64,000 bases of DNA from Schizochytrium sp. TIO01 (lineage: Eukaryota > Sar > Bigyra > Thraustochytrida > Thraustochytriidae), in the NCBI GenBank assembly GCA_004764695.1, contig SMSO01000005.1:99501-163500 (forward strand), written 5' to 3'. Numbering within the stretch: the first letter of the stretch is position 1; every line of letters begins with the position of its first letter. Below, piece after piece: positions 3,486 through 22,600 of the stretch. A program made the translations under genes and the position numbers. The notes beneath the pieces are model-generated. The model was given only the letters and a program-made list of their open reading frames with translations, was not told the DNA's origin and ran no database searches.

Positions 3486-6400
3486 TTACTCCATCACGCT
3501 TGACACCTGTGTACCAAGCACAGTGATAGCTGAAGGCGGTTTAATCTTCCACCATGCTTTTTTAGTTGCCTTACAATTTTCATCCATGAAAAATCCCGAG
3601 GCAGTTAAGTCAGCTCGAGCTTGGGCCTTGACGTAGGACTTGGTGGGAAATTTTGAAGTATCATAAGCACTGGATGTGGTATAAGCCCTTAATCCAGCAT
3701 ACAACTCCTCAGCAATTTCTTGAATAGTTTGGTTGCCAGGCTGTGTCCACAGCAAGTTGGTCGATTCCAAAGGGTCTTCAGCAAGATTGTAAAGCTCTAC
3801 ACGATAAGCATTCATTTTCGCAGGTGGCTTTCGAACAGTCACCTTTTTAGGCTCCCAGAGAAGCTTATAAACTCCGTTTCGAACTGCGAAGCGAGGGGAA
3901 AAGCCCAGACAATCTCCCATAAAATTGTCACGGAACTCAAATATTAGAGGTTCAGTTTGAGCAACCACAATAGGATCACAAGTACGAAGTAAGCCACATG
4001 ACAAGTCACGCCCTTGGATACGGTTTGCATCTGGTAGAGAAGAAAACTCCTCTGCATAGCCTGCCAAGCTTGCCAGAGTGGGGAAGAGGTCTACCCCGGA
4101 AGCGACTTCGCCGAAAGTTGAGGCGGATGGAATATGATTAGCCCATCTCATAAACATGGGCATGCGCACTCCTGCCTCGTACAGTGACCGCTTTCCGCCT
4201 CGAAAAGGCGAAATGCTGCCTGCAAGGGTGAAGTACATTGCGCGTGTCTCGGGACCATTATCAGAAGTATGAATAATGAGAGTTTTATCATCCAAACTTA
4301 GATCGCCAAGCCGCTCAACAAGACGCCCAACAGCCTCCTCGTGGTCACGTAATAATGTTTGATAGATTTGCTGCGGGACGTATTCCTCAATAAAATCATA
4401 TGGCATGGTCCGGTTTCCGCGATTCGGCCATGGGTTGCTCGTATTACTAGGAAATCCATACTTTGCGGCTTGGTCGTAGGACTCTGCCAAAACCAATGGT
4501 GCATGCGGGTTCTGCAACCAGACTTGAACGAAAAACTTTCGTTCATCCATGGCACGGTCCTCAAGAAATGAAATCGTTCTGTTTACGAGTAAGTCTTGAG
4601 CATAAGATGTAAAGAAAGGATCATTGTTGTTCAAAACTGTGCTATGAGACTGAGAAGCTGTCTCAAAAAGGACTTCTCCTTTATCAAGCCGTGAGCTGCT
4701 TCCATAAAGCTGATACTCGTCCAAACCGTACAAAGGACCATCGGCATCCAATGAGGCGGGGGCGCTGTATCCAAGATGCCACTTGCCAAAATGCGCAGTA
4801 ACGAAGCCTTGGTCATGAAAAAAGCGAGGCATCAAGGTGAAATCATCCACGTCTTGGCCTTCACCAAGGTACGAGACAACTCCCGAGTTGCGGTTTGATT
4901 TGGAAGTTTTATCGAGTGCATTATGAACTCGAACATCAACATGAGAGGGGTAGCGCCCTGAAACAATTGCAGCACGACTTGGTGAGCATACACAGCCATT
5001 TGCGTAATATTGAGTAAAATGAACGCCTTCAGACATGAGCTTGTCAAAAGTTGGCGTACTAGGGCGATATGCAAATTGATCAATTCCTGCGCGGTTTGAG
5101 TTCAAGTTCCCCGAGACATCTCCATAGGCCATATCATCAGCCAGAATGAAAATAATTCCTCTAAGTTCCTCACGGAGCTCTGCTTGGGTCCAATTCTGAA
5201 CAGGTGATGACTCTGAGTTTGTCATGCTCGCCGCAGGACCGCCATAGCACCCGACATGAGGAACTGCGGTGGGCTCGCTGGGAAGGCTACTAATCCAGAA
5301 CTGGAGCTCGAGCATGAGCTGGTTCTTAATCTTTTCAAGCCGACTCTCATCTGCACTACTCTTAGGAACGCTGTTCCACAAGTTCGTCAATTCGAACTCG
5401 CCTCGTGACAAATCGTACAATTCATATCGCTCCTCCACACCAGCAGATTCAGACGCTGGCTCATGGAGTAGCTTGAATGTGCCTTTTAGAATACTGTATC
5501 GCGGAGATTCATGCATGCAGTGACCCGGAGTGCCGAATCTCCATTCCCAGACAAGGGACTGAGTACGAGAAAGCAAGCTGCAATGCGACGAAAGGCAAGA
5601 GGAGGCATCAACACCGGGCAACCCGCTTGGTACGTCAATCTCCGCCCATCCAGCTAGCGTAGGAAGCAAATCGATACCTGTGATGTCAGCGGTCATCGTC
5701 CCAGATCCCATATTGTGACGAAAAAGCCCTTTGAGACCACCATCATAAAGTGAGCGACGGACACCTCGCGCAGAGAGTCGAGGCCTGGAAAATGAATCTG
5801 CTTCTTCAGTCTCGCCTCCAGTCGAAGAATACATCAATGTCAAGGATGAACTGTCATTGACTAAAGTCAAAAGGTCTAATAACTTGTTCATTTCATGAAT
5901 TCTATTCGCCCTGTAAACCTGCTTGGGGCAAGTTTTGTAGCGTGGAATATAAGCGCCACCGCGCGTAAGATCAGGGCAAACTGACCAGCGCGTCTCCGCA
6001 GGACCCTCGACCCCATTGCTCCAGTTGTCTTCATTGACGTTGTCGATACCATGGCCAAAGGCAGCGTCGAGCCTAGGTAGCATCAAGACAACTAAATAAT
6101 CCTCCTCGTTGTTCACCTGCTCGCTGACAAATGCAATCGCGGCATCAATAACATTACTAAAATGGTCACTTATAAAGCGACTGTCTGTGCTCTCTGTGAT
6201 CGCATCGACCGCAAACGGCCATTGCCCAAAATGGCCAACCTTGAAGCCTGCATCACGAAAGGTTGTATAGAGCACAGGGTCAACCTCTGTGGCTTCATTT
6301 TCAGCTGCGTTATCTCGGTGTACACCTATAAGTGCCGGGAAATCCCCTGCAACGACAGCTGCTTCTGAGGGAGCAAGGTCAGGACTTGCAGAGCGATAGT

Positions 6401-6584
6401 TGCTTGCTGCACCCGGTAGGACATTGCCAATCTTCTTCACAAGGTTCGAGGGCAGCGCTTCGAGGTCACCTTGCGTGAATTCCTGCAGCTGCACGAGACA
6501 TGCACCTCTGCCCTCCACGCCGCTGTTCACTAGAGCCAAGCTCATCCACGCCAATACGGCGCGCCACATGTTGCCGTGGGCCAT
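3486..6584 (-). CDS. Secreted two-lobed sulfatase: N-terminal pseudo-sulfatase plus active-type C-terminal domain
   Basis: A 1032-residue protein with an N-terminal signal peptide (hydrophobic core about residues 7-21) and two sulfatase-like halves in tandem. The C-terminal half (from about residue 475) is a complete arylsulfatase B/I/J-like type I sulfatase. It has the metal-binding pair D483-D484 in FILADDMAYGD, the formylglycine motif C533-S-P-S-R537, K601 and H603 in HFGKWHLG, H694 in QNPHAP, D775-N776 in HTSDNGPET and K798 in RGGKRSLYEAG. The family removes sulfate esters from glycans after Cys-to-formylglycine conversion in the ER. The N-terminal half (about 60-440) aligns by its landmarks, but the catalytic residues are replaced: LAPSE at 70-74 for CSPSR, FGQWP at 119-123 for FGKWH, STGGET at 254-259 for SDNGPET and R276 for the lysine. 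It also lacks the start of the fold with the DD pair. The start ATG at 6584 (aagATGgcc) fits the signal peptide. Single exon; substrate unknown. Confidence 0.9.
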   Translation of the reverse strand: MAHGNMWRAVLAWMSLALVNSGVEGRGACLVQLQEFTQGDLEALPSNLVKKIGNVLPGAASNYRSASPDLAPSEAAVVAGDFPALIGVHRDNAAENEATEVDPVLYTTFRDAGFKVGHFGQWPFAVDAITESTDSRFISDHFSNVIDAAIAFVSEQVNNEEDYLVVLMLPRLDAAFGHGIDNVNEDNWSNGVEGPAETRWSVCPDLTRGGAYIPRYKTCPKQVYRANRIHEMNKLLDLLTLVNDSSSLTLMYSSTGGETEEADSFSRPRLSARGVRRSLYDGGLKGLFRHNMGSGTMTADITGIDLLPTLAGWAEIDVPSGLPGVDASSCLSSHCSLLSRTQSLVWEWRFGTPGHCMHESPRYSILKGTFKLLHEPASESAGVEERYELYDLSRGEFELTNLWNSVPKSSADESRLEKIKNQLMLELQFWISSLPSEPTAVPHVGCYGGPAASMTNSESSPVQNWTQAELREELRGIIFILADDMAYGDVSGNLNSNRAGIDQFAYRPSTPTFDKLMSEGVHFTQYYANGCVCSPSRAAIVSGRYPSHVDVRVHNALDKTSKSNRNSGVVSYLGEGQDVDDFTLMPRFFHDQGFVTAHFGKWHLGYSAPASLDADGPLYGLDEYQLYGSSSRLDKGEVLFETASQSHSTVLNNNDPFFTSYAQDLLVNRTISFLEDRAMDERKFFVQVWLQNPHAPLVLAESYDQAAKYGFPSNTSNPWPNRGNRTMPYDFIEEYVPQQIYQTLLRDHEEAVGRLVERLGDLSLDDKTLIIHTSDNGPETRAMYFTLAGSISPFRGGKRSLYEAGVRMPMFMRWANHIPSASTFGEVASGVDLFPTLASLAGYAEEFSSLPDANRIQGRDLSCGLLRTCDPIVVAQTEPLIFEFRDNFMGDCLGFSPRFAVRNGVYKLLWEPKKVTVRKPPAKMNAYRVELYNLAEDPLESTNLLWTQPGNQTIQEIAEELYAGLRAYTTSSAYDTSKFPTKSYVKAQARADLTASGFFMDENCKATKKAWWKIKPPSAITVLGTQVSSVME

Positions 6585-11329: not shown

Positions 11330-13411
11330 TTAATGGGGCGGGCCGCGAGGGTTAGCCGACCATCTCTCGCGACCGCGAACAATATCCAGACCCTGGTCTG
11401 ACTGAGGACCAGGGGCAGCGAGTGCAGATTGCGGGTATCCGCTTGATGTGGAGCGGCTCCGAAGGATTGTCTCTGGGCTTGTTGCAGATCCCCTCTGCCG
11501 TCTTCGAATGAAGAAAACAGTCGCTGCAGCTAAAAGCGTAGCAGGAACGGCAACACTAATGACGATGTAAATTAAAGACATCGAGTAAGTATTGGACTTT
11601 GGTTCGGTTGTCGGAGCGCTTGTCGGCCACATTGTAATAGTTGCGGCCTTGAAACAGTTTTGGAAAGAACTTGAGCTTGAACATAAACGCGTAGATTGCG
11701 TTCCATCACACATTTTAATTGCAATGGAAGAGTTTGCATTGTCTGTGCATGTGGATGAGTCAACAGTGTACTCCAATGTCATTACTGCTTTGTCAGTGCT
11801 GATGAAAGAATCATATTTGTCACAGTTTCCGCGATTCACGCAGGCTTCCGCCAAGGCAAAGTCGTAATACGAAACTAAATCATCAGCAATGGTGCGTGCA
11901 GAATGCAAACCAACCAATAATCCTTGCTCAGATGCGTATGTCGCCAGGTATGAGTTGTAGGCTATCTGGGCATCTTCAGCAGACGCACGAGTGGTAATGC
12001 TTGATACACCAAGATTTGATCGACATGTGCTATACTCAAGACAGTCCGTATCCATAGGGAAAACACCATGGCATCCAATTTCCGCTGCCGCATCAATTCT
12101 TGTAGCCATAAGGGCACGAAGACCTGTGTCTGTCATGTTCAACCACAAGTCTCCACGAGGGGTTTCTGCGTTATTCTCGATTAGATAGGCTTCCCAAGCA
12201 GCCTTGTTTGAAAGATAGTCCGGGCGCCATGTTTCTAGTGCACCGGCACTAAATGTGCACAGAACGTGGTGACCTTGACCCACAAGGTAATCCACAAGGT
12301 CTGAGTTGAGCCCATCATTGTCATGAAGACTCACAAACACCGCTTGGGTAATCGATACGTTATCCATAAGAAGGCGCTCGTTAGATGAGCGTAGGACTCT
12401 TCGGGAAGTGATCGCATCTGTCTGCTCCTGAACAATTTCAGACATGTTCGCAAAGCCAAACGCTAGATTCGACCATGATACTGGTGATTCGGGCAGTGCA
12501 TACTTGTCCGGGGTTGGCGCAACAGAAGGGCGTACGGTAGGACGAGGAGTTGGTGTTGAAGCTGGAGAGGGTGTGCTGCCGTCATCCCAACAGTTGATCC
12601 ATTCTCCAGAAGTACACAAGTTGCCATTGCCACTACAATATTTCGTAGAAAGCGAATAAGTGTCCGCAGTAGTGCAAGCACCACTGATAAGCGTGTACTC
12701 CGCGTTTAATATTGCTTTGCCGTCTGAAACAAAGGGAGACAACATATCGCACTCGCTGTATCGCTGGCAAGCTTCATTGATGGCAAAGTCGTAATCACTG
12801 TGCATTGTACTTACAAGGTCAAGGGAGTTTTTAAGAGCAATCGCTAACCCTAAGTTATGCGCTGTGGTAATTTGCCATTGATTGTATGCAATTTGAGCAG
12901 TGAGCGCAGCACTCTTACTCCCACTGGTGGATTCAATCTTACCATAACAGTCTGAATTGTCGTAGCAATCGGTGTTGTCAGGTTCGATACCATCGCAGCC
13001 ATATTGCACAGCGCGTTCAAAGCGCGGGGTCATAAGATCCGCCAAGGCATCCAGTTGGGTAATGTCGAGCCATTCTTCGTCCCAGTCAGCCATGTCCCCA
13101 ACCGCAACAGCCATCCAGGCAGTTTCATTAGCGATGCAGTCTGCGCGGAAAGGTTCCAGTGTGCCGACTGAAACATAGCAAATGACAGTTTGCCCAGCTG
13201 CTTTGTAAGTGCTAATGAGATCTGTATCGTCAAGGTCGACAATAACGAGGTCTACACCCGTGGCATCATCTTCTCCGCCGCCGCTCCAGCCCCACGCCAA
13301 GTTTGCATATGTGATGCCGTTTGGCACACTCACAACGCCACTTGCAGGTTCTGCCGTATACAGACAAAACAACACTGCTGTGAGTAATGCATACATTCTG
13401 CTCTGCATCAT
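11330..13411 (-). CDS. Membrane-anchored protein with two GH114-like domains (second lacks EPDN)
   Basis: A 693-residue protein: signal peptide (1 to about 25), GH114 domain 1 (about 30-275), a Pro/Thr/Ser linker (about 278-302), GH114-like domain 2 (about 305-600), one transmembrane helix (about 617-640) and a short basic/Ser-rich tail. GH114 enzymes are endo-alpha-1,4-polygalactosaminidases. Domain 1 has the family landmarks VICYVSVGTLEPFR, WLDITQLD, GCDGIEPDNTDCY (143-146 EPDN), LKNSLDLV, DFAINEAC and ILNAEYTL (E238). In domain 2 the EPDN position reads FPMD (451-454), while the later acidic residue survives in MTLEYTV. Domain 2 is therefore probably inactive or altered. The topology predicts the catalytic domains outside the cell or in the lumen. 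Two ATGs start the frame (13411 and 13408). A three-domain paralogue follows upstream on the same strand. Confidence 0.85.
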   Translation of the reverse strand: MMQSRMYALLTAVLFCLYTAEPASGVVSVPNGITYANLAWGWSGGGEDDATGVDLVIVDLDDTDLISTYKAAGQTVICYVSVGTLEPFRADCIANETAWMAVAVGDMADWDEEWLDITQLDALADLMTPRFERAVQYGCDGIEPDNTDCYDNSDCYGKIESTSGSKSAALTAQIAYNQWQITTAHNLGLAIALKNSLDLVSTMHSDYDFAINEACQRYSECDMLSPFVSDGKAILNAEYTLISGACTTADTYSLSTKYCSGNGNLCTSGEWINCWDDGSTPSPASTPTPRPTVRPSVAPTPDKYALPESPVSWSNLAFGFANMSEIVQEQTDAITSRRVLRSSNERLLMDNVSITQAVFVSLHDNDGLNSDLVDYLVGQGHHVLCTFSAGALETWRPDYLSNKAAWEAYLIENNAETPRGDLWLNMTDTGLRALMATRIDAAAEIGCHGVFPMDTDCLEYSTCRSNLGVSSITTRASAEDAQIAYNSYLATYASEQGLLVGLHSARTIADDLVSYYDFALAEACVNRGNCDKYDSFISTDKAVMTLEYTVDSSTCTDNANSSIAIKMCDGTQSTRLCSSSSSFQNCFKAATITMWPTSAPTTEPKSNTYSMSLIYIVISVAVPATLLAAATVFFIRRRQRGSATSPETILRSRSTSSGYPQSALAAPGPQSDQGLDIVRGRERWSANPRGPPH

Positions 13412-13719
13412 CCTCTATCACAAGACCTTGCGTCTGCGAGCAGGCCCCAGCCGTGCCGCACAATAGAGTTTTGGTTGCTGTCTGCACAGCTCTTTGGATT
13501 CGCAGTGCGCGCTCTTGTTAAATCCTCTTTGTAGTCCTTGTAATATTTTGTATTGAAAGAGAAAAACGGAATCACACCTTAGCGCTGTAAGACACCCAGA
13601 ACTAAGAACCAAGACTATGCCTCCAGCTGGCCCGGAGCCTTAAAACCGTGTCGCCGTCTCCACAGGGCTCCAAGAGCATCTCCGAGTTCAAGTATTGCAT
13701 TTCCCTTCGTACAGCCACG

Positions 13720-13784
13720 CTCGCTCGCTCGCTCGCTCTCTCGCTCGCTCCCACGCACACACGCACAGTCAGTCAGTCAGTCAG
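13720..13784. repeat. (CTCG)n followed by (CAGT)n microsatellites
   Basis: Seven CTCG-type units with a TCTC interruption, then a CA-rich spacer and four to five CAGT units. Confidence 0.9.
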
Positions 13785-14190
13785 CCTAGCCAGCGTTAAG
13801 AAGCATGACTTCTTGTCCTCGCAATGACCACTGTCCAATTGTATAGTTACTTTAATACACAGGGGATGAGAGCACGTGCAAATTGTGTAAGCAAGGGAGC
13901 ACTCCTGTGGTTCCGAAAGTGGGACGCCTGTCACTCGTCTCCACTGCAGACCCGCTGTCTCTGCGGAGGAGGCCTTTGGTGTCGGCCTCGTCGGAGCTGC
14001 TCGAATGCGCTGCTGATGCTGCAGGTGTTGTGCACGTGAGCGGTAATGCACTCTTAGAGAAGAATTTCTCCCAGCAAAGAGCAGCAAGTCCAAAGGGGCT
14101 TTCTGGAGTTGTGCCGACCGCTCAGCGTTGTCTTGATCTTGTTTCTAGCCTGAGAATCAGCAGGCAGGCACCTAGGAGCAGAGAAGGGAG

Positions 14191-14221
14191 TGAGTAAGTA
14201 AGCAAGCAAGCAAGCAAGCAG
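14191..14221. repeat. (AAGC)n microsatellite
   Basis: Tandem AAGC units preceded by GAGT/AAGT variants. It uses the same unit as the array at 7473-7512. Confidence 0.9.
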
Positions 14222-14520
14222 GTCCTGCCTATATGCTGATGTGGTTTGTGCTTTACTCTATGCTGTCTATGGACTTGAGGCTGTTTTAAGAAATCAGGAG
14301 CCTAGTCCAGTCGCATCTAGCCGCTGGAAATGCGAACCAACGAGCTTTCGGTCACCCTCCTTGGCAAATTGGGTGTAGCACCAGCGTACGGTACGAAGCG
14401 CACGATCTTGAAGGTTGGTATTTGGAATGCATGTAGCAGCTTTCAAAGTTATCAGCATTACTATTAAATTGAGCCAGGACGAGTGTTTTTTTAATTTTTT
14501 TATAAACCCTTTCGTAGAAT

Positions 14521-14541
14521 GTGCATGCATGCATGCATGCA
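14521..14541. repeat. (GCAT)n self-complementary repeat
   Basis: Five GCAT units. The sequence is its own reverse complement and could extrude as a hairpin. Confidence 0.9.
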
Positions 14542-16385
14542 GAATATCATCGATGGGACATCCGACCGACCACCCATGCTCATGACTTCATGAACTTGAA
14601 CGAGCAGGGAGATATCTGGATATAAGCTAACGCTCAAGCTTTTTGGCCTGCGTTCAATCACATAGACTACCACCGACAGCTTCGCACCACAGTTTTTTTT
14701 CTAGCAAACAAGATTAGAAGAGGAAGATTGCCAGCGAGGGAGCTGGAGCTTCACTGCAAACAGTTTAGTACTTAGTAGCAGCAGATACTTGGTGCGCTGC
14801 TTCTGCACAATTAAGTCTTGAAGAATAAATTTTTGCTTATCATTTACTCCCTCGCTCAAGCTTCGAGAGACAGCGCCTACAACATTCAGTTTGTGCATGC
14901 GCTGGGTGCAAAGTACATTTCTACACCCACGGCAGAAAACCAAGCCATGACTGTGGCCATCTTCTGAGGAAGATAGTAAGTAGCGCCAGTATTTGTGCTT
15001 GCTTGCAAGAGTAGCAGTAACTCGGAAAGTCGTCAGAGCCGCAGAGCATGACAATGAATTGCCGGACCATCTGCCACCGCGCATGTGTCGCGCTACCGAA
15101 TCAGCGTGCTTGCTCACCACTGGAGCTTCCAAACAACCCAAGAAACAGTGTGTGCAGTAGCAATTTTGTAGTAGACACGACAATTGACGATTATGATGCT
15201 TGCAATTACTGTGAATCTTCAAGTTGAGTAGTATTGAAACGTGCAATGCGGATGCCCACGATGCTCATCATGAGCACGGCGGTGTAACAGTAGACCATCT
15301 TGACGATGTTTTGATATCAATGACCTTCATTGCGGCTTTCCTTCTTTTCTCTAAATGGGATTGTTGGTAGAAACAGGTCGAGGTAGGAGTAGGTAGGTAT
15401 CACCTATGCTACTATATACTTTTACCTCAGCTGGCTGCACACCAGGTGCACGTGTACACCCGCCATCACTCCTACTCCTACTACTTTGAGGCAAGCTCTC
15501 ATGGTGATGACAGCAAAATTTTGATGATCACTGAAGTTTGAAAACTCAATGTTGATGATGATAACCAAATTCCTTTTTGATCATGAGCAGTAGATCCCTC
15601 GTAGAAAAGTGTGCAATACTACTGGAAACCTCTAGAATATTATTTTTGTATTTAGCGGAAGAGAATGAGGAAAACGAAGTGATGCCTGTTCTTCGAGATA
15701 TCCTGAAATTGGTGGCGGCTAGATAATATCTCACTCGCTCAGATTAAAATAGATTCTCACGAGGGAGGGTGAAAATTTCGGAAATGGCTCGCTTTCTAAA
15801 TAGTGTTTTATGGCTTATAAGGGAGCGTGAATCAATCTCTTGGTGAGAGATGGACTTGTGTCAAAAACCTGATTTCCAAAAAACGATGAGCGAGGGATTT
15901 AAACTATCCACCCTTTAATAGTTTTAAAAGTCATGCGTGCAGTGTATATGCAGCTGCCCTAGGCTTGCGATATTATTCGGGGGAGTAGGCCCTATCAAGA
16001 GATTTGGCGGACACACTCTTTCATCGAAGAATAAATAATTTTTTTGGCAGATCTAATAATCTTGTCTCGCAAAAATCGCAACACTTTGGGTAGTAGGTAT
16101 AATAAAGTAGGTAGGTACTACTATTATCCGGTTAGATATTAATTGGGACAGTTTCGAACCGAAGCTACTAAGAGCTCTATTGAAGTTGAGGATTTCATCT
16201 CTATGTGCTACGAGTAGAATCCAGCTTTTCATTGTTAGCTAGGTATTGGATCAACGAGCCGCGGCCAACCTGCATAGTAATTATTTTTTTAATTTCTAAA
16301 AGTAAGAAGAAGAAAACTACGGTATAAAGAAAGAAAAATTACATTTTAAGAATCAGTCTATGCAATACAAGACAAATGCCGCTAA

Positions 16386-19300
16386 CTAATCACGAAAATT
16401 CTCGTGACGAGAGTTATGCGAAAAAACGGTGACTGTTCCATCTACTGAAGAATTTCTACGGCGTCTTGACGATCGCCGGCGACGGTAACTCAGATAAATT
16501 AAGATCAGCACGCACCCTACAGTGGCACCAATTGCACCCGTTACAACTGGGGAAAGTTTAAGTGAATGGCTGTCGCTCTCCTCTTCCACAGCATCTGAGC
16601 TAGACTCATTAGTACCACGAGTTCCTACCGAGCCAAAACAATTCACTTGGGTCGTGTTGTTCGAGCACTCCTGTGAGCTGGCATCTCCACTACACATTTT
16701 TGTAGATACGCCCCATTGCTCAGAGGCATCACAGAGAGAAGTGGTCACACTATATTCACGGTTGAACACAGGCTTGCTGGTGTTCAAAAATTTCATGTAT
16801 GCAGCACACTCACCGCGCGAAATGCAACCCTCAGCCATTGCAAAATCATACTGTGATACCATAAGATCAGCGAGCTTTGAGTTTGCATGCAAACCGATCT
16901 TGAGACTTTGGGAAGAGGCCATAGAAGCAAGCCAATCATTATACGCATACTGTGCAATATCTGCTTCTTCGCGCGAGAAACCAAAGGCACGACGGCATGA
17001 AGCATAACTATTGCAATTTACGTCTAAGGGAAGAATACCTGAGCAACCAATATTTGCTGCGGAGACGATCCGCTTACCCATCAAAATGCGAAGATCAATG
17101 GAGCTGATGTTAAGCCAGTCCCGCGTGTTGGTGAACGCTGTTAGGTTGTTCCATAAAGTGGCATTCTCCTCGTAGTCTGGTCTCCAAGTTTCAAGAACGC
17201 CTGCACTGAATGTGCACATCACAGCTCGAGTGTTGCTGTACAGACTCTGTACAAGCTTAGAGTTCAGTTGGCCATCTTGAGTGTGCAGGTCAACCAAGAC
17301 CACCTCTGCTCCGGTTACATTATCCAAGTCTGCAATACTTGTATCACCAGTGACCGCTTCGATGGTGTCCAGTGCGCGCAAGTGTGGAGAATGAGAATAC
17401 CGTGTGTCGACCAAACGACGCAGGGAATTGGTTGTATCCGAAGCACTTTCACTTGTTGTTGCATTAGCCGCAGTTGTAGTGTTGGTCTCACTGACAGTAG
17501 TGGGAGAATCAGTAGAAGACGCTGTCGAGGTATCGGCAGTATCGATAGGAATACCCACCACGAGGTTCGCCCAGGGAACAAGGTCGCGTGCTTCATAGTT
17601 TATGGGGGGTGCCACAAGCTCGCCTGCTTGCAATGAGTTGAAGCAATTGTGCCAGGTTCCGTCCTGGCACATAAAGTTCACAGTGTTGTTGCCACCATCA
17701 CAGAATTTAAGTTGGATATGCAAACTCTGAGCTTCAGTGCACAGGCTTGTCTGGTTATCCAGATTGTAATGATGAACCCAAATTGATTTGTTGCGTGTAT
17801 AAAACGGGTCATATAAGCTACACTCGTCATAAGAAAGGCAGTTTGAATTGATTGCCCAGTCAAAGTCATCAGCAAGATACTGGACAAGCCCTGGCGCATT
17901 TTGTAAGGCTATCAACATGCCACGCTCGTGTGCTGCACTGGCAAGCCAACGATTGAAAACAAGTTGATCTTGAAGAGCTTGCGTGGCGTTTGGCAGAAAA
18001 GCTGTGCAAGTATCCTGCAAAGCACAGTCCATGAAATCTGGCGCAATTGCACTGCAGTTATGCGCAACTGCCCGATCCAATCTTGGAATCAAGAGCTCTT
18101 GCATAGCTGTCAAGTTGCTAATATTCAGCCAGGCGTTTGATGTTTCCAAGGTAGCATTGAGTGTTGCTGCTTGCCAGGCCGCAGGGTCTGCAAGAACATC
18201 CTCACGGTACAATTCACGCGTACCTGCACTGAAATAGCAGACAACCAGCTTATGTTCTTCATCCCACATGTTGATTTGCTCAGAACTAGTAGTATCCAGG
18301 TCTACCATCACAGCATCCATACCTGTAGCGTTATCTTTTCCTCCATCTGCCCAGCCCCACGCCATGTTTGCAAAGGTGGTATTTGGATTGACTGTCCGCA
18401 TGCCAGTAGGAATTGACATAACAAGGCTTCCAGATGGGTCAATAGCATCAGTAGTCACCATGATTGTTGGGTATGGTGTGGGTGAAGATGTTGTAGGGAC
18501 TATGACTAAGGTCGGATAAGTCGTAGGCTGTAGTGTTGGTTTCTTTGTTGTCGGCTGCAGCGTTGGTTGAGGAGTGGGCTGCAGCGTCGGTTGAGGAGTG
18601 GGCTGCAGCGTCGGTTGAGGAGTGGGCTGCAGCGTCGGTTGAGGAGTGGGCTGCAGCGTCGGTTGAGGAGTGGGCTGCAATGTAGGTTGAGGAGTGGGCT
18701 GCAGCGTCGGTTGAGGAGTGGTCTGCAACGTCGGTTGAGGAGTGGGCTGCAATGTAGGTTGAGGAGTGGGCTCTAAAGTAGGGGGCGATGTGGGACTGGG
18801 TGTGGTGCAGTCTGACCAAGTGCCGTTTACGCACATGCCATCAGCTCCAGCGCACATTTTGGAGGACATACTGTGTGCTGATGCCCTTGAGCAAGTGTTG
18901 CTCTCGAGTTTATACTCAACGTTGAAGACTGCCTTGTTGCTTCCCGTAAAATAAACCATTCTTCCACACTCACTTTCTGAAAGGCATTGTTCGTTAACTG
19001 CGAAATCATAACTGCTGGCCATACTTGTGACGAGCTCCAACGAGTTTTTCAAGCCAATTGAAAGGTTCAAACTATGCGCATATGTGATTTGCCATGCGTT
19101 GTACTCCTTTTGATAGGCAATAGCTTTAGCTCTACTTCCTCCGATTGCCGTGATGTTCATATAACATTCTGTATTGGCGTAGCAATCAGTGTTATCCGGC
19201 TCAATACCATCGCAGCCAGCGGCCGCAGCACGCTCGAAGCGTGGGCCCATGAGTTCTTGAAGAGTATCCAGCTGGGTGATATCAAGCCACTGTTCATCCC

Positions 19301-19673
19301 ACGTCTTCATTTGGCCCACGACTACTGACGCCCATCCTGTTGCATTTGCAAGAACATCATTTCTAAAGGGCTCTTTCGTGCCCACAGAAATGTAGCAAAT
19401 CACTGTCTTGTTGGCGCTCTTAAGCGATGGAACGAGAGATGCCTGCGAGGACACATCGATATCAATGAAAACGACGTCCTGGTTTGCGACCTCGTCTTTG
19501 CCGCCTCCAGACCAGCCCCAGGCCAGCAGTGCCCATGTCGATCCCACGGGCACCTCTCGCCATGTAGTGCTTGCGTCTACGTTCTGCACCAGCGCCACTA
19601 GCGCCACCATCACGAAGGCCACCAGCATCGAGGCTGTGCTCGCCAGCGATACGCTGGCCCGCACGTGCCTCAT
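16386..19673 (-). CDS. Membrane-anchored protein with three GH114-like domains and a Pro/Thr repeat linker
   Basis: A 1095-residue paralogue of the 11330-13411 product. Order: signal peptide (1 to about 36), GH114 domain 1 (about 40-290), a Pro/Thr/Gln repeat linker (about 295-400), domain 2 (about 430-670), a Ser/Thr-rich insert, domain 3 (about 690-1000), one transmembrane helix near the C-terminus (TGAIGATVGCVLILIYLSYR) and a basic tail. Domain 1 keeps GIEPDN (157-161) and FNVEYKL (E253). Domain 2 has IAPDFMD instead and WVHHYNL where the later acid should be, so both acids are affected. Domain 3 has ILPLDVN and keeps FNREYSV. Only domain 1 looks catalytically complete; the others may bind glycan. 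Many N-X-S/T sequons fit a secreted or surface protein. I start at the ATG at 19673; the frame extends two codons further only to a TTG. Single exon. Confidence 0.85.
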   Translation of the reverse strand: MRHVRASVSLASTASMLVAFVMVALVALVQNVDASTTWREVPVGSTWALLAWGWSGGGKDEVANQDVVFIDIDVSSQASLVPSLKSANKTVICYISVGTKEPFRNDVLANATGWASVVVGQMKTWDEQWLDITQLDTLQELMGPRFERAAAAGCDGIEPDNTDCYANTECYMNITAIGGSRAKAIAYQKEYNAWQITYAHSLNLSIGLKNSLELVTSMASSYDFAVNEQCLSESECGRMVYFTGSNKAVFNVEYKLESNTCSRASAHSMSSKMCAGADGMCVNGTWSDCTTPSPTSPPTLEPTPQPTLQPTPQPTLQTTPQPTLQPTPQPTLQPTPQPTLQPTPQPTLQPTPQPTLQPTPQPTLQPTPQPTLQPTTKKPTLQPTTYPTLVIVPTTSSPTPYPTIMVTTDAIDPSGSLVMSIPTGMRTVNPNTTFANMAWGWADGGKDNATGMDAVMVDLDTTSSEQINMWDEEHKLVVCYFSAGTRELYREDVLADPAAWQAATLNATLETSNAWLNISNLTAMQELLIPRLDRAVAHNCSAIAPDFMDCALQDTCTAFLPNATQALQDQLVFNRWLASAAHERGMLIALQNAPGLVQYLADDFDWAINSNCLSYDECSLYDPFYTRNKSIWVHHYNLDNQTSLCTEAQSLHIQLKFCDGGNNTVNFMCQDGTWHNCFNSLQAGELVAPPINYEARDLVPWANLVVGIPIDTADTSTASSTDSPTTVSETNTTTAANATTSESASDTTNSLRRLVDTRYSHSPHLRALDTIEAVTGDTSIADLDNVTGAEVVLVDLHTQDGQLNSKLVQSLYSNTRAVMCTFSAGVLETWRPDYEENATLWNNLTAFTNTRDWLNISSIDLRILMGKRIVSAANIGCSGILPLDVNCNSYASCRRAFGFSREEADIAQYAYNDWLASMASSQSLKIGLHANSKLADLMVSQYDFAMAEGCISRGECAAYMKFLNTSKPVFNREYSVTTSLCDASEQWGVSTKMCSGDASSQECSNNTTQVNCFGSVGTRGTNESSSDAVEEESDSHSLKLSPVVTGAIGATVGCVLILIYLSYRRRRSSRRRRNSSVDGTVTVFSHNSRHENFRD
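18565..18780 (-). repeat. In-frame coding minisatellite, nine 24-bp units
   Basis: Nine tandem 24-base units in the linker of the three-domain GH114 protein. They encode PTPQPTLQ, with one TTPQPTLQ variant and silent changes (cagcgtc/caatgta). The first coding unit abuts PTLE, and a degenerate PTTKKPTLQPTTYPTL follows the last. The unit is a multiple of three, so copy number can change without breaking the frame. The peptide resembles extended, possibly O-glycosylated Pro/Thr stalks between carbohydrate-active domains. Confidence 0.95.
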
Positions 19674-22600
19674 TTTCAAGGAATTTCAGGTTTGCTGCTC
19701 CTTAAATTTTATTCGACCACAGGTTCAAATAGCTTATCGTGGTCCATCACTTTTTTAAGAACTTGAATTGGTTATTAATTTATGGAGCTTGAAAATAGCG
19801 ACATGACAGGATTGGTAGGTGGAGAGAGTTAAAGAGAACTACTAATACTATCGCTCTTCTGCTCTTTGCTACTTTTTTCACGCGCGCTCCCTCGGCCCTT
19901 AGATGGTCAATACCCACAGCAATAGGAGTCTGTTCTACTTCCTGAAGACGAGAAGAGAAACTTTCTCTTTGGTTTCGCTTTTTCTTTTATTGTTCCTTTT
20001 CAGGAGCCAAGTAGGACCTACCTAATGGTTCGAAAGGTCTATTAACCTGTCTGTCTGAGATACTGAAATGAATGCATGTGGGTGAGTATGTCGATCAAGA
20101 CGATAGTCCAAAGCATCATGAAGCTCGCTCTACGCACGGCGCACGCCAGAATTTTAATGAGCCTATGACAGGCGCTGTGCAGTCTGTGGAAGCATTGGAT
20201 GTTCGTAGGATTGGTGGCTCAGTGCAGGTCCTCGGGTGTTTTGGTTTATTTGAACCTTCTGTGTGGCGAGATACTCTTTTATAACTCGACTTGCCTTCTA
20301 TCACTTCTTTTTCATTTCTCATTTCAGTGACATGCGCAATGTTCCTCTATCTGAAGCCTTGTTCGCTCCATACCACTGCGCTTTTATCACCACTCCGATG
20401 TCAGGCTAAGTAGCTGGAGCCTCTGAAACACAAAGCTGTATAGCACCATTCACTCTTGTGATTATGCTCTTGTTTTCGAAGAAGGTCACGGTGTTGTCTT
20501 TTTCTTTTTTCTTTTTCTTTTTTTTCTTTCTTTCTTTAATAAAAAATAACACTTCCATTTAATTCCCTATTTCGAATACGTGATTCTCATGCTAATTATA
20601 ATTTTGATTATGATTTTGTCATGGAAAAGAGAGAGAGAAAGAAAGAAAACCATGACTGATCACACCCTATCAAACACTTGGAGCGCTGCCTGAAGGAATG
20701 TTTTCGCACGGACACGCCTAAGCCTGGATGACCTGACTGCGAGGATGGTACATCAGCCACGATCAAAAACTGAAGAGCGAATGGTATGCATACAGGCAGG
20801 GCGCCACCTCTAACCCGAACGAATTGTATGTGATGCCTAAATGAAATGCAAACTTAAACCTCTGTACGCTCAACTTGTAGAGTGTGCTCCTTTCATCACG
20901 TGAGAATGTTAAACATCAAACTCTGCATTTCGAACAAAGGACAATTTTAAGTAGTGTTCAAGCTTATTTACATCTACATACGAAGACGCACCTCACCTGT
21001 ATGGCAGTACTGTTAACCTACACAGGCGCGCGCCAATATTAAAACTGTAATTCACGTGCCGCCAGCTTTAGCAGCGACAAGTCTCTTATGATGCAGTAGG
21101 GTAGTACTCGTGCTTGTCTGGCTGAGTATGATGATTGAATGCAGCATATCAGCACACAGCTGCTCAAATTTATATTGTACAGAAGGGGTGTAGGACTTGG
21201 GGATCAAGACGATAAAATCGTATTTGGCTTTCGAAGTAACAGCTGTATCATGCTACCTATAGCTGATGAAAGAGATGATCTCCCAAGCATTATCATTAGG
21301 TAGTACAAAAAAAAGACAGAGCAGAGGCAAATACTACGAGCAGACATTTCCAGCACTGGACCAGAAAAGGTTTTCAAAGAACTGCTATCGCTGAAGTACT
21401 TAATTACTAAGTAGCCTAGCGCGCGGCCAAGGCTAAGTTCTTAGTCATCTACAGCAATAAGGAGATTCATTACGATACATTATCTACGACGCACTGCCTT
21501 TGGTTTGGTTACTTGGCTGTTTGGCTTTTGGCTTGCAGTGGGCTAGCCACTGGCCGGGATCATGGGATTGCGTGTTGTTTTGGCCAATGGAGCGTCCTTT
21601 TCTGCAATTCTCTTTGCTTTTGCATTTTCCTAAAAGCTCGTGATTCACGCTATTTCTCTTCCAAGGCTTTAAATTATTTGTTTTGTTTTACTCATAACTT
21701 TTAAACATTAAAAAATAAGTCTTTTAAAATATATAAATAAAGAGGAAAAGGGATGGCATTGACAAGGCGGTGGACTAAAAGTAGGGGAGCATGCCACAGT
21801 ATGTTAATCACAAGCCAGGGATTGAGATTGGTGTCTAAGAACATAAACTTCATGATATATTGGAAAATCTTGCCTTGCGTTTCTATCTAAAAGTTCAGTT
21901 TTTAATATTTTTTGTCCTGTGCATTCATTGGGCCCACACTTAACAGAGGTCTCCATTTACTTTTCGACGCACGTGCAGCACACACTTAAGGTGGATTAAG
22001 TCTGCACGTGAATATAGCCTACCAGGAAAGAGCTATAAAGCAAGTATATTCTTTAATAGAGGCAAACACCTTAAGCGGACGTGCGTCTTGAATCTGTGGG
22101 ACCGTGAGGTTCCCCCGCGGGAAGTCGCTGTTCCTATGTAGTTACTGCAGTTTTAAGCATCCCAGTTGAAACAATACAAGCTTCTGCGGACGTTAGAATA
22201 GCAAAACAAGATTCGGCTAGGACAATAAATCAAGTGTCCTGGCTCGAAGTTACATCCTGAAGCCAGAAAGTAATACCTATTAGTGGTGCTACTCCCTTGA
22301 TGAATAACTAAAACTACGAGGATGTCTGCGCCCACCCATCTTGAAGACAGTAAGAGCGGGAAAAAAAATAGAACGTATCTGCCAAGAGCTACTTGCTCTT
22401 TTCTGGTGTCTTCAACTCAAGCTGCTCATTTATTCTTCAGCTCCTCCTCAATATCTCTTATGCTACTCGCTTTCGATGCTTGAAGAATAGTATATCGCTA
22501 TTTCACTCACTGGAGCTCGTTCCTATTTTCAGGTTTTCTTTTGTACCAATGGGCATGGTACGAGAATGATTAATTTTTTAACATTATAATACTACGAAAT

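Follow-up and report, generated by a model that had tools for sequence, protein, structure and literature searches.

What role could be left for a glycosidase module that has lost catalytic residues and stands in the same chain as a complete copy? The question is raised by two genes on the minus strand of the 64,000-nucleotide stretch of DNA analysed here (the window). An open-frame check of the window returned both gene A (11330–13411) and gene B (16386–19673) as uninterrupted ORFs.

Two adjacent genes with five GH114 modules

Hmmscan placed two GH114 (PF03537) stretches in protein A and three in protein B, with whole-protein E-values of 5e-84 and 2.4e-116 respectively, which bears out the five GH114-like domains of the original prediction. 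Scored alone against PF03537, for which the curated cut-off is 27 bits, the first modules A1 and B1 reach 168.3 and 171.1 bits, and the later modules A2, B2 and B3 reach 123.9, 129.9 and 108.2 bits. The assignment of the later modules to GH114 was thus upheld, and none of the three falls into another family. PF03537 is the sole enzyme family that Pfam detects in the two proteins, accompanied in protein B by a sub-threshold PT repeat.

Gene A encodes 693 residues, arranged as signal peptide, A1, a short PT linker, A2, a transmembrane segment and a short tail. The active site of A1 (12581–13339) is complete, with the nucleophile D145 (codon 12977–12979, motif EPDN), the acid/base E213 (codon 12773–12775, motif NEAC) and the lid tryptophan W110. 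Module A2 (11651–12508) is degenerate: the nucleophile has been replaced by M453, with D454 next to it (FPMD), the acid/base Glu522 is kept, and the lysine and the lid tryptophan are lost. The transmembrane segment spans residues 614–635 (11507–11572).

Gene B, with an ATG at 19673 and a stop at 16386, encodes 1095 residues counted from that ATG; the residue numbers given here for gene B count from a TTG at 19679. Its product consists of a signal peptide, B1, a long PT stalk, B2, B3, a transmembrane segment and a basic tail. B1 (18804–19568) is complete (D162, E230). It is followed by the Pro/Thr repeat stalk (18453–18803), which is PF04886-like but below cut-off and differs in length in a second copy of the gene on contig C20. 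In the degenerate module B2 (17640–18452), D548 is kept (APDF), the acid/base has become S612 (NSNC) and a third glutamate has become histidine (VHHY). B3 (16632–17600), also degenerate, carries a Ser/Thr-rich insert near its start; L885 replaces its nucleophile, with D886 next (LPLD), and the acid/base Glu950 is kept. The transmembrane segment of gene B comprises residues 1042–1065 (16485–16556), after which the basic tail follows.

Hydropathy analysis finds in both proteins a hydrophobic N-terminal signal and one TM-like C-terminal segment followed by a short tail, in line with the C-terminal membrane anchor that had been proposed. Both products are therefore predicted to be type I membrane proteins, a topology that we infer from these features.

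A neighbouring gene on the minus strand of the window encodes a 1032-residue double sulfatase (3486–6584). Its C-terminal half has the formylglycine motif CSPSRA; the N-terminal half, a copy that has diverged to 24% identity (E 5e-23), reads LAPSEA in place of that motif. The sulfatase thus repeats the theme of an intact and a degenerate copy, here with the degenerate copy at the N-terminus.

Active sites and predicted fold of the later modules

In Ega3, the endo-α-1,4-galactosaminidase of Aspergillus fumigatus, Asp189 is the nucleophile, Glu247 the acid/base and Trp154 the lid residue (PMC12054363). In our alignment of chain 6oj1 all three fall at a constant offset of 41. Asp189 corresponds to the second acid of the D/EPDN motif, Glu247 to the glutamate of N-E-x-C and Trp154 to the tryptophan preceding E-x-W-L. 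Because the published residues map at this offset, the N-E-x-C glutamate is the acid/base, and the glutamate of NAEY is a separate conserved residue. Among 81 bacterial GH114 sequences, the nucleophile and the N-E-x-C glutamate are invariant (81/81 each) and the NxEY glutamate is present in 80. The residue losses of the later modules are hence not noise, since they fall in near-invariant columns.

On this mapping A1 (EPDN/NEAC) and B1 (EPDN/NEQC) have both the nucleophile and the acid/base and retain the equivalents of Asp189, Glu247 and Trp154, so that only the first domain of each gene is complete, as had been proposed. Both catalytic acids occur together in none of the later modules: A2 (FPMD/AEAC; D to M) and B3 (LPLD/AEGC; D to L) have the acid/base without the nucleophile, whereas B2 (APDF/NSNC; E to S) has kept the aspartate, lost the acid/base and acquired histidine for the third glutamate. 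The lid tryptophan and the lysine of L-K-N are absent from A2, B2 and B3 alike. The motifs quoted in the original prediction, EPDN/FPMD for gene A, EPDN/APDF/LPLD for gene B and the loss at VHHY, proved exact to the letter. Its second acid, of the NAEY/NVEY type, is indeed a conserved glutamate, but it is not the acid/base, and it is retained in A2 (TLEY) and B3 (NREY).

The reference set comprised 54 columns with at least 95% conservation across the 81 bacterial sequences. Intact modules keep 42–46 of these, A2 35, B3 36, B2 39 and C34g1_D2, the second module of a paralogue on contig C34, 25. Cysteines conserved at the same level in the bacterial set are present in all 10 protist modules. D, E, K-N and N persist in the intact modules, and the losses that recur in the later modules are E143, D145, N146, K194, N195 and N212/E213 (A1 numbering). 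Judged from these alignments, the losses are directed at the active site. A2, B3 and C34g1_D2 also share an N-to-D change that places an aspartate one position past the lost nucleophile (FPMD, LPLD, LFED), and their mutual identity is only 27–40%.

Structure prediction, one of the checks suggested at the outset, was run with AlphaFold2 for A2 (pLDDT 79, pTM 0.83) and B2 (pLDDT 87, pTM 0.87) and returned the GH114 fold. The best Foldseek match of both models is Ega3 (6oj1; E 3.8e-16 for A2 and 4.2e-16 for B2), followed by other galactosaminidases, and the A2 model superimposes on Ega3 with a Z of 25.3 and an rmsd of 2.4 over 231 residues. Both modules are thus predicted to keep the GH114 barrel; because the AlphaFold input alignments held GH114 relatives, the models provide consistency with the fold and no independent discovery of it.

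Descent, paralogues and conservation

With A1 as the sole query, bacterial genomes yielded no relative; a six-module alignment yielded 454, of which 80 were kept, and none has two GH114 stretches in one ORF. A scan of viral contigs gave no match. The ten protist modules form one group apart from the sampled bacterial ones (100/99). In trees with and without bacterial sequences, A1 groups with B1 (98–99% bootstrap) and A2 with B3 (91–99%), and C34g1_D2 falls on the A2/B3 side with support of 88/84 and 97/78 (not starred). B2, B3 and C34g1_D2 are long branches. The domain phylogeny that had been called for thus resolved two pairs but gave B2 no supported partner; one clade of all four later modules is neither supported nor rejected (AU p 0.42).

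As A1 pairs with B1 and A2 with B3, the degenerate C-terminal module is older than the A/B duplication, and the gene that underwent duplication therefore had an intact module followed by a degenerate one. The stepwise loss envisaged in the original prediction does not hold: A2 and B3 share one inherited degenerate module, and B2 has lost the acid/base instead of the nucleophile. This different loss suggests that B2 may have had a separate origin.

The genome (64 Mb, 37 contigs) contains GH114 genes on C4, the contig of the window, and on C20, C34, C30 and C3; no chlorophyll-binding proteins were detected in it. C20 (31.8 kb, L010) carries near-identical copies of both GH114 genes and of the acyl-CoA synthetase-like gene of the window. 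Its A2, B2 and B3 motifs are the same as those of the window, and hence the degenerate motifs are not sequencing errors. The C20 copy of gene B reaches the contig end, where its frame is disturbed, probably by the assembly edge. C34 has two GH114 genes, the first of which (C34g1; L009 1300–3504, plus strand) combines an intact module, a degenerate module lacking the nucleophile, the acid/base, the lysine and more (LFED/TVNC), and a hydrophobic C-terminal segment. C30 has a single-module gene, and the single-module paralogues on C30, C34 (C34g2) and C3 are without degenerate modules. In the C3 gene (L007 346–2343, minus strand), a vWA domain (PF00092, E 2.6e-7) is fused to a GH114 module that has kept both catalytic acids, an unusual pairing of enzyme and adhesion domains. 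Elsewhere on C4 (611495–614707), at least nine tandem ACP domains occur in one open frame, presumably the PUFA-synthase pattern known from thraustochytrids, and on this ground a thraustochytrid was preferred as the source. An oomycete was the first candidate; a search for elicitins gave no match, and neither did its control. The lack of detected chlorophyll-binding proteins speaks against a photosynthetic stramenopile.

Over about 9.8 kb, 72 substitutions separate C4 from C20, with transitions favoured. Within A2, B2 and B3, 10 differences are synonymous and 5 non-synonymous, where 30% synonymous would be expected given the observed transition bias (P about 0.003); omitting the Ser/Thr insert of B3 gives 8:3 (P 0.004). 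This excess, from 15 differences, is an observation indicating purifying selection on the dead modules. C20 is either an allele or a recent duplicate, and the selection test holds either way. All degenerate modules compared here come from one genome.

Proposed role of the later modules and known systems

We consider it reasonably probable that these proteins combine a working first GH114 module with later, non-cutting GH114 modules that serve as accessories in glycan binding, spacing or both. Proteins A and B would then be cell-surface enzymes of the endo-α-1,4-galactosaminidase type, in which the membrane-distal first module probably cuts a polymer of the α-1,4-galactosamine type outside the cell. 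The membrane-proximal copies would be pseudoenzyme modules, kept although they have ceased to cut. The former substrate cleft of these later barrels may hold a related polymer of sugars or amino sugars, although with the cleft lysine, the lid tryptophan and other substrate-side residues lost they may bind the original ligand weakly or not at all. Alternatively or in addition, they could serve as rigid, N-glycosylated spacers on which the catalytic module stands clear of the cell coat. Tandem duplication of a gene with an intact module, a degenerate module and a transmembrane segment would have produced A and B, with an extra middle module in B.

The proteins could instead be receptors or adhesins: a protein or glycan partner would bind to the degenerate barrel, as FGFs bind to the GH1 domains of Klotho, for adhesion or surface recognition and not for digestion. 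A transmembrane segment with a basic tail, mucin-like stalks and the paralogue with a vWA domain would suit such a role. On the other hand, no partner is known and the first modules keep all catalytic residues, which makes digestion the simpler role; we give the receptor or adhesin reading a small but real chance.

The chance is small, too, that the degenerate modules serve as intramolecular chaperones, or as processing domains, which the active module needs in order to fold and be transported. Such a role has been proposed for the pro-domains of lactase-phlorizin hydrolase (LPH), a membrane protein with a similar layout of tandem glycosidase modules. Of the four domains of pro-LPH, the catalytic ones are III and IV, and I and II are cut off during transport (PMC7658089). 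In pro-LPH the active modules are thus C-terminal, whereas in A and B the active module is N-terminal and the degenerate modules sit between it and the membrane. Because of this placement, cleavage between modules would free the enzyme. The single-module paralogues, moreover, exist without any such helper.

The aspartate that A2, B3 and C34g1_D2 share one position past the missing nucleophile makes changed catalysis conceivable. There is a slight chance, much as for the chaperone role, that this C-terminal lineage has been reshaped and is not dead, the shifted aspartate and, in A2 and B3, the kept glutamate forming a new active or tight-binding site; GH114 would then include an enzyme with a second, differently specific sugar site within one chain. 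That the shifted acid itself sustains an altered catalysis together with the old glutamate of A2 and B3 is improbable. Three modules as divergent as these share the change, but a residue one place along the strand would normally face elsewhere, the lid tryptophan, lysine and asparagine have gone as well, and C34g1_D2 has no glutamate at the acid/base position. Decay of the later modules into remnants without selected function, to which their long branches and several lost invariants might point, is very improbable, as the frames are open, all conserved cysteines are kept, the folds are confident and the synonymous excess between copies argues against it.

For the reading of a working module with non-cutting accessories, the closest known system is Ega3 (PDB 6oj1/6ojb), of the same family and predicted fold. 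Its solved construct is one hydrolase domain, whereas A and B have two or three modules, of which the first alone is complete, a PT linker or stalk and a C-terminal transmembrane segment. FsGH114 (9ep6), the GH191 enzymes and the hydrolase domain of PelA (GH166) share the barrel and a related active site and rank directly behind Ega3 among the structural matches of A2 and B2; their similarity is lower, and both catalytic acids are present in them. A glycosyltransferase-like frame on C31 (377040–380330, L093) has one partial match to DUF3492 (PelF-type; E 2.3e-10), too weak to claim that the organism makes its own galactosamine polymer. A search of the genome for Sph3 (Spherulin4) gave no match, and the control was without a match in the same search.

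GH114 has been reported from secretomes predicted for more than three thraustochytrid genomes (PMC6050695), in passages that mention neither module number nor degenerate copies, and it also belongs to the 'osmoclusters' described for osmotrophic eukaryotes (PMC13345962). A multi-module GH114 protein with intact and degenerate copies was not found in the open-licence literature searched, and no paper combining GH114 with pseudoenzyme terms was among the matches listed. Single-module GH114, GH114 in thraustochytrids and GH1 tandems with degenerate modules are thus already known, and within that literature their combination in GH114 is new. The naturally inactive modules offer a test of whether a galactosaminidase cleft can evolve to bind galactosaminogalactan or polymers like Pel, and they prompt the question of which cationic polymer thraustochytrids encounter or produce on their cell surface.

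In working, the likeness is to LPH and Klotho, which carry tandem modules of one glycosidase family on a single-pass membrane protein, as hydropathy suggests for A and B. Some of their GH1 modules are without catalytic residues. GH1 is an unrelated family to which proteins A and B (PF03537) do not belong, and the likeness is one of working with no homology claimed. GH114 would join those families in which a catalytic barrel, fused to a copy that still works, has apparently turned into an accessory module without catalysis.
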